From assembly GCA_002169695.1 (NCBI GenBank), contig NHJO01000003.1:1-34540 (forward strand): a stretch of DNA of 34,540 nucleotides. The letters run 5' to 3'. Positions 27,330 to 28,176 of the stretch are shown here, piece by piece. Numbering within the stretch: the first letter of the stretch is position 1; every line of letters starts with the position of its first letter. Made by a program: the position numbers and the translations under genes. Under the pieces are notes generated by a model. The model was not told the DNA's origin, made no database searches, and saw only the letters and a program-made list of their open reading frames with translations. The DNA comes from a bacterium TMED217. Lineage in GTDB: Bacteria; Fidelibacterota; Marinisomatia; Marinisomatales; UBA1611.

Positions 27330-27968
27330 ATGAAATATAAGCATATAGTTTGGGACTGGAATGGCACACTTTTAGATGATTTGTGGTTATGTGTTAATGC
27401 AATCAACTATGTATTGCAATCTAGAGATATGCCGCTGGTTACAACAAAAAGTTACAGGAGCATATTTTGTTTTCCAGTTATAGAATATTACAAAAAGTTA
27501 GGATTTGATTTTACAAAAGAGCCATTTCCAATACCTGGGTTTTTAGAATATTATAAAAATAAATTTGAAAGTTGTGATCTTCATCAAGATGCAAAAGTTA
27601 TTTTAAAAAAGATTAATCAATCTGGGTTTACTCAGTCAATTCTTTCAGCGGGGAAGCAGAGTTCTCTAATTAACTGGGTTGAATATCATAATATATCTCA
27701 TTTTTTTAATCAAATTGTAGGTGTTGATAATGAAAATGCAGATGGTAAAATAGAAGCTGGAGTCCATTGGATAAAAAATTCACTTTATAAGCCTGAAAAT
27801 ATTTTGTTAATTGGAGATACTATTCATGATAGTGAAGTAGCGAACTATATGGGTGTCAAATGTGCTCTTCTCCCCATTGGTCATGTAAGCGAGGATAGAT
27901 TAAAAAGTACAGGAGAAACTGTTTTACCGTCTCTTAAAAGTATACTTGAATATTTAGAAATAGATTAG
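27330..27968 (+). CDS. HAD-superfamily hydrolase (phosphoglycolate phosphatase-like)
   Basis: 212 residues. The motif I nucleophile is Asp9 in VWDWNGTLLDD. The usual second Asp of DxD is Asn11, a form seen in a HAD subgroup of which many members carry WNGTLLDD. Motif II is ILSAGKQSSL (Ser/Thr phosphate site), motif III is around Lys 146-155, and motif IV is LLIGDTIHDSEVA with two Asp. A helical cap lies at about 18-80. The substrate is unknown; a small phosphorylated sugar or phosphoglycolate is usual for the fold. The stop is followed 11 bases on by a terminator-like hairpin. Confidence 0.88.
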   Translation: MKYKHIVWDWNGTLLDDLWLCVNAINYVLQSRDMPLVTTKSYRSIFCFPVIEYYKKLGFDFTKEPFPIPGFLEYYKNKFESCDLHQDAKVILKKINQSGFTQSILSAGKQSSLINWVEYHNISHFFNQIVGVDNENADGKIEAGVHWIKNSLYKPENILLIGDTIHDSEVANYMGVKCALLPIGHVSEDRLKSTGETVLPSLKSILEYLEID

Positions 27969-27978
27969 TTGTTAAAAA

Positions 27979-28005
27979 CCCTCAAAATAAATAATGAGGG
28001 CTTTT
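27979..28005. terminator. Bidirectional terminator hairpin after the HAD gene
   Basis: CCCTCA (27979-27984) pairs with TGAGGG (27995-28000) across a 10-base A/T loop. On the plus strand it is followed by CTTTT; on the minus strand by TTTTT (27974-27978). It can end the HAD transcript on one side and the minus-strand RNA proposed below on the other. The stem is short (6 bp) but all but two pairs are G-C. Confidence 0.6.
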
Positions 28006-28054
28006 AATACAAAGTAACCGCTGACCTCCTAAGAGATTCAAGCTCTTAGGTGTG

Positions 28055-28102
28055 TTACACAGCTGATCCTTTGGAGGTCAGCGTTATATTTAAATTAGAC
28101 AA
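28055..28102 (-). CDS. Possible 15-residue leader peptide
   Basis: TTG start 6 bases after GGAGGT, then 14 further codons and TAA: MSNLNITLTSKGSAV. The SD is a perfect match over 15 bases and the spacing is ideal. Codons 7-10 (ACG CTG ACC TCC) are one arm of the long inverted repeat, so translation would open the stem, as in attenuator leader peptides. No downstream gene follows on this strand, so a classical attenuator role is doubtful. Chance is possible for a frame this short. Confidence 0.3.
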   Translation of the reverse strand: MSNLNITLTSKGSAV

Positions 28103-28148
28103 CTGATCACCTCCTTTCTTTATTGTTAACGAAATACACACACACAAT

Positions 28149-28176
28149 ATTAAAAATAAAAAATTATAAATATCAA
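28149..28176 (-). promoter_or_regulatory. Possible minus-strand promoter for the small RNA
   Basis: Minus strand TTGATA at 28176-28171 (5 of 6), 16-base spacer, TTTAAT at 28154-28149 (5 of 6). The start would be near 28142, about 23 bases before the SD. In A/T-rich DNA such matches occur by chance, so this counts only together with the structure downstream. Confidence 0.35.

Follow-up and report, generated by a model that had tools for sequence, protein, structure and literature searches.

The window, a stretch of 34,540 nucleotides from a Marinimicrobia genome, carries a standalone small RNA gene on the minus strand at about 28140-27972, and this is a better description of the site than the bistable fold put forward in the initial annotation. 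Of its two flanking genes (named from their translations), the thioredoxin-like one is divergent and the HAD-type one convergent. The parts of the RNA are these:

28147..28176, minus strand: putative sigma-70-like promoter (TTGATA at 28176-28171, 18-nt spacer, TAATAT at 28152-28147), read from the sequence.
28105..28119, minus strand: extended Shine-Dalgarno AGAAAGGAGGTGATC, a 15-nt perfect complement of the 16S rRNA 3' tail GATCACCTCCTTTCT.
28055..28102, minus strand: mini-ORF of 15 codons with a TTG start, MSNLNITLTSKGSAV then TAA; frame, stop distance and Met-Ser are kept in homologues.
28073..28086, minus strand: 5' arm of a long-range stem, within the ORF at about codons 6-10; it holds ACCTCC, a mimic of the anti-Shine-Dalgarno.
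28061..28082, minus strand: competing proximal hairpin GCTGA...TCAGC (28082-28078 with 28066-28062).
28030..28060, minus strand: inner small hairpins, GTG-TAA-CAC around the stop codon and CCTAAGAG/CTCTTAGG, read from the sequence.
28015..28029, minus strand: 3' arm of that stem, with the inner hairpins on one side and the terminator on the other; it holds GGAGGT.
27972..28005, minus strand: intrinsic terminator hairpin AAAAGCCCTCA...TGAGGGTTTTT, with equivalents in homologues.

The HAD-type gene (27330-27968, plus strand), being convergent, can use this terminator too. Alignment of the homologues places TTTGA and a TA-rich -10 box at positions matching the promoter, as in TTGACT-N17-TAAGAT of loci L011-L014. 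The region 27960-28142 folds at -55.5 kcal/mol against -35.0 +/- 3.7 for shuffled sequences (z = -5.6, with 0 of 200 shuffles as good). Since the plus strand folds equally well (z = -6.4), folding alone cannot assign the strand; we read the minus strand as sense because the promoter, Shine-Dalgarno, ORF and homologues all point there. An RNA of the plus strand carrying an anti-Shine-Dalgarno was therefore rejected despite its equally strong fold, the promoter, ORF and homologue orientation all being those of the minus strand. A fragment of a 16S gene was also rejected, the sole shared part being the 15-nt tail complement, in antisense, as was a phage origin, for which matches were weak and at chance level.

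The Shine-Dalgarno block AGAAAGGAGGUGAUC (minus strand 28119-28105) forms a perfect 15-nt duplex with the 16S tail at -26.8 kcal/mol, while the best Shine-Dalgarno duplex among 232 ordinary genes of the same genome reaches -13.2 kcal/mol and their longest match to the tail is 7 nt. These 232 long ORFs, taken from 334 kb of the source genome (300 kb elsewhere, loci L230-L244, plus the window), score hardly above shuffled upstream regions, so that Shine-Dalgarno usage in this genome is near background. The 16S rRNA ends in GGATCACCTCCTTTCTA in 15 of the 15 Marinimicrobia where it was readable, the source genome's own 16S not being among them; 16S was located by a short DNA probe in 25 of 100 genomes, and none was found with RF00177. 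Relatives with a GGGGG variant of the Shine-Dalgarno keep the 16S pairing through G-U (-21.8 kcal/mol), and across the element class the Shine-Dalgarno is a perfect 13-15 nt complement of the tail. The initial annotation had suggested that the RNA reports ribosome availability; its link to ribosome engagement is borne out by this 15-nt complement, and the RNA may act as a sensor.

The mini-ORF, which had escaped the initial annotation, opens with a UUG at 28102, 7 nt past GGAGG and at ideal spacing behind the Shine-Dalgarno. Relatives may begin with GTG, and their ORFs run to 13-16 codons. Of 94 non-redundant elements, 93% have an open frame 0 of 12-35 codons, where the other two frames give 24% and 27%, and in the same set the start codons interchange (GTG 47, ATG 32, TTG 15). 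Where the search pattern left codon 2 free, it was TCT in 20, TCG in 5, TCA in 1 and another codon in 3 (serine in 26 of 29); thus the serine is conserved rather than the bases. Past residue 2-3 the peptide is free to differ from taxon to taxon, and codons 4-7 show non-synonymous changes within Marinimicrobia. As conservation across taxa does not extend to the peptide's middle and end, selection acts on the frame and its size, and on the evidence of these comparisons the reading frame, start and stop of the mini-ORF are under selection. Ribosome profiling in Caulobacter reported two earlier ncRNAs as translated (PMC4117421).

The structural elements first noted at the site are largely real. 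The minus-strand GGAGGT copies (28114-28109 and 28029-28024) and the single ACCTCC (28078-28073) lie exactly where they had been placed, and the 14-bp stem with one bulge is present (28086-28073 with 28029-28015, the bulged G at 28018/28019). The two small hairpins described inside it, GUG-UAA-CAC and CCUAAGAG/CUCUUAGG, are possible, though the minimum-energy structure shows another interior; constrained folding retains the second of them when the ORF is forced open. What did not hold up is the idea of a bistable fold: forcing the Shine-Dalgarno to pair with ACCUCC yields -30.1 kcal/mol against -38.0 for the closed form, and since this hidden state is some 8 kcal/mol worse, and thus thermodynamically minor, the RNA is not bistable at equilibrium. 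With the Shine-Dalgarno open or bound the energy is -37.7 kcal/mol, with the 30S footprint open -33.8, and with the whole ORF open -11.0. Opening the Shine-Dalgarno or the footprint thus spares the stem and opening the ORF costs it, which makes ribosome docking compatible with the stem and means that translation of the ORF would destroy it. Across the element set, the tendency of the Shine-Dalgarno to be sequestered by downstream sequence is modest (mean z -0.9); pairing of the early ORF with the pre-terminator segment has a mean z of -1.7, with 47% of elements at p <= 0.05.

A covariance search, the check proposed with the fold, found the element in 33 of 245 genomes of the phylum with model R1, which is not chance; the matches fall in families f1, f2, f12 and f15, and blastn finds the element within the same family. 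Records holding these loci are titled Candidatus Marinimicrobia or Neomarinimicrobiota, and the aligned homologues share promoter boxes, Shine-Dalgarno block, stem and intrinsic terminator in the minus-strand sense of the window. A sequence pattern matched 26 of 244 genomes of the phylum and, without codon 2 imposed, 65 of 289 alphaproteobacteria (about 22%); the reversed-pattern control gave 0-1 (0 in alphaproteobacteria). Scanning 84,980 species genomes with AAAGGRGGTGATCDNDTGTCT returned at least 118 stretches. Among the matches listed are Alphaproteobacteria (Rhizobiales, Sphingomonas, Azospirillum, SAR116, Rhodobacteraceae), some Gammaproteobacteria, Gemmatimonadota, Nitrospinota and Marinimicrobia; the same architecture is sporadic in Nitrospinota, Gemmatimonadota and Gammaproteobacteria, and in a scan of 185 gammaproteobacteria the query genome itself was the only match. 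The collection-wide pattern imposes the Shine-Dalgarno and TCT, so that diverged relatives are missed and the conservation of the Shine-Dalgarno is partly ascertained. We set aside L119, L141, L179, L270 and L282 as chance matches and regard L212 and L158 as doubtful. Among the named loci checked, most genomes hold one copy. The element is missing from most Marinimicrobia, and this patchiness argues that it is dispensable. Only the Shine-Dalgarno and start region are conserved across phyla; neighbour clustering shows adjoining genes to differ between taxa in identity and orientation, with synteny within genera or orders only. In Azospirillum and Skermanella replicons the element is unannotated.

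Contrary to what had first been suggested, the class is not wholly undescribed: it belongs with the alphaproteobacterial sRNA CC2171 (Rfam RF01867), which is its only described part. At a relaxed cmscan threshold the window matches RF01867 over its full length (model positions 1-159) at 33.9 bits, E 6e-6, below the gathering score of 75 bits. The alphaproteobacterial loci L286, L279 and L283 pass that score (90.5, 79.7 and 76.3), and the remaining loci grade down continuously, including a second Marinimicrobia form (L204, 42.8 bits). Both RNAs share the core cAAcaAucGAAAGGAGGUGAUC..KUGUCU.AU, a stem from the start region of the ORF to the segment before the terminator, and the terminator itself; the window carries the CC2171 5' core GAAAGGAGGUGAUC with a start-like triplet and UCU. 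The long-range stem of the CC2171 type is present in Marinimicrobia, but its sequence differs and it is shifted by about 4-5 codons: the arm lies at codons 7-10 in the window and at codons 3-5 in CC2171, and the arm sequences are unrelated. The window also has a UUG start, an A+T-rich sequence and a 15-codon ORF. RNA-seq in Mesorhizobium huakuii detected a CC2171 transcript, MH_s33 (PMC5596092), the sole mention of expression in the open-licence literature searched, where no function for CC2171 was found.

The initial annotation held that compensatory changes in the 28015-28029/28073-28086 stem would support its fold. Inside Marinimicrobia this expectation failed: of 300 cells for the ten core pairs, 289 remain paired, the 17 one-sided changes all lead to G-U, and the core has no double compensatory change, double changes occurring at the outermost pair only. 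In the equivalent stem of other phyla, such changes are clear. There the 3' side was anchored on the base of the terminator, blind to pairing, in 53 elements. Codons 3-5 pair with the abutting pre-terminator segment in 67.7% of cells, compared with 26-47% when slid and 48.7% when shuffled (maximum 57.4% over 1000 shuffles), and the pairs often exchange between A-U and G-C (AT 23/GC 13, TA 21/GC 11, GC 21/AT 11). Relatedness of the rows inflates these figures somewhat; non-majority rows alone are 52.1% paired against 39.3 +/- 2.6%. Pairing of the upstream GGAGGT with ACCTCC is kept at 99.6% in Marinimicrobia relatives, and this reflects nothing more than the invariance of those bases, whose columns hardly vary. 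The proximal hairpin GCTGA/TCAGC is paired in 87% of cells over 30 relatives. In the alignment of L056-L060 it becomes GCTGGC/GCCAGC, with both sides changed; in these loci (GCTGGCCTCC...GCCAGC) an ORF codon passes from Thr (ACC) to Ala (GCC) along with its hairpin partner, an RNA-driven amino-acid change.

At the level of sequence, then, the element unites a maximal Shine-Dalgarno, a start at ideal spacing, a Met-Ser frame of fixed small size, a stem linked to the ORF, and a terminator, and it has no conserved partner gene. We favor, with a probability of roughly 0.5, a standalone, ribosome-gated mini-mRNA, a distant relative of CC2171, that would serve as a sink or sensor for ribosomes using Shine-Dalgarno sequences. 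Available initiating 30S subunits would dock on the Shine-Dalgarno and translate the ORF, thereby opening the long-range stem; for the RNA of the window, the predicted energies would have the stem lost on opening of the whole ORF and kept on Shine-Dalgarno binding alone. When ribosomes are short, or the 16S tail is hidden, the RNA would fold into its closed form. It may thereby act as a high-affinity sink or sensor for Shine-Dalgarno-capable ribosomes in genomes where few ordinary genes use such sequences. As little of the peptide past Met-Ser is kept across taxa, the function is likely the engaging and translating of a ribosome and not the product. The stem of the alphaproteobacterial form begins right behind codon 2, and docking itself should therefore compete with it. 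More tentatively, and at distinctly less than even odds, the class across several phyla (CC2171 with the Marinimicrobia RNA) may sense or buffer ribosomes with a free 16S tail by means of a maximal Shine-Dalgarno, an ORF of fixed size whose product is irrelevant and a stem opened by translation only. Our search, limited to open-licence papers, found no precedent for an RNA that titrates ribosomes.

Alternatively, the RNA could have a dual function, translation exposing the 3' arm as a ribosome-unlocked seed that pairs with target mRNAs in trans; this is unlikely, although the arm, sited past the ORF and immediately ahead of the terminator, would be left single-stranded if the ORF were translated. 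Its sequence varies between taxa (GACAATG, TCAC, GGAGGTCAGC), so that the targets would differ by lineage. There is a similarly built parallel in rnTrpL/peTrpL of Sinorhizobium meliloti, an attenuator-derived sRNA with a translated 14-aa leader peptide and trans activity, as cited in PMC10117765. The two are alike as short terminated RNAs with a tiny ORF (translated in rnTrpL, predicted here), and they differ in that rnTrpL is leaderless, with no Shine-Dalgarno, and derives from the trpE attenuator, whereas the window RNA stands alone with an extended Shine-Dalgarno. The 13-15 nt of complementarity, far beyond what initiation needs, would also suit a pure decoy whose sole effect is to mask the anti-Shine-Dalgarno tail on free 30S subunits, titrating or protecting the 16S 3' end, with the ORF and stem irrelevant; we think this improbable, for start codon, Ser codon, open frame and stop are all kept, and a pure decoy could do without any of them. 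That Ser is retained through the synonymous codons TCT, TCG and TCA, together with frame and length, is what one would expect of an ordinary tiny mRNA for a bioactive Met-Ser micropeptide, a reading made improbable by the free divergence past residues 2-3 and the changes at codons 4-7. A leader attenuator or riboswitch acting on a downstream gene, which the leader-peptide-like ORF, competing hairpins and terminator might evoke, is highly improbable because neighbor genes are not conserved, the next gene in the window being convergent and the downstream gene and its strand varying across taxa, and because Rfam yielded no riboswitch match. The earlier remark that no gene follows downstream, only a terminator, is supported in that this is a standalone small RNA with its own terminator and no conserved gene behind it.

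The preferred reading, of an RNA that engages ribosomes through its Shine-Dalgarno and mini-ORF, can be set beside known systems. Bar-type minigene ORFs have only a few codons, whereas those of the present class have 14-28 and belong to an RNA of their own that has a terminator and a conserved stem. Shared with minigenes of the phage lambda bar type and the axe-txe minigene (PMC8708949) is the very short ORF behind a Shine-Dalgarno, which here too would act via translation rather than product. The rpsU gene of Flavobacteriales also has a single extended Shine-Dalgarno where such sequences are otherwise hardly used, and it reports the state of the 16S tail in connection with bS21 and anti-Shine-Dalgarno sequestration (PMC9976891); rpsU, however, encodes a ribosomal protein, and the window RNA has a 15-codon ORF only. 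UpsM of Rhodobacter was considered and set aside as another RNA: it forms a 5' leader of mraZ, and its sORF overlaps its terminator.

It is unexpected that distant phyla should retain a perfect complement of the 16S tail when their genomes for the most part disregard Shine-Dalgarno sequences. The orphan Rfam entry CC2171 thereby gains a testable hypothesis, and should the RNA turn out to read ribosome engagement, it would gauge initiation capacity directly, as an RNA. Cultivable Sphingomonas, Azospirillum and Bradyrhizobium carry the same construct, as does Caulobacter via Rfam, so that the question is answerable there.

Some individual loci deserve mention. In second copies of Azospirillum (L212) and Sphingomonas (L229), the same Shine-Dalgarno block is followed by ATGTCTCATGG; the ORF opened there is longer and signal-peptide-like in L212 and has 18 codons in L229, possibly a sister family or a leader captured by a gene. 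Loci L075 (called Gammaproteobacteria), L078 (Gemmatimonadetes), L144, L161 and L164 share a near-identical element and a nearby polyketide-synthase-like gene, and one set of taxon labels among the L075/L078 bins is probably wrong. In Microvirga and its allies (L079, L090, L140, L143, L146, L152, L174), and in this group only, the element adjoins a divergent gene resembling release factor 3 (prfC).
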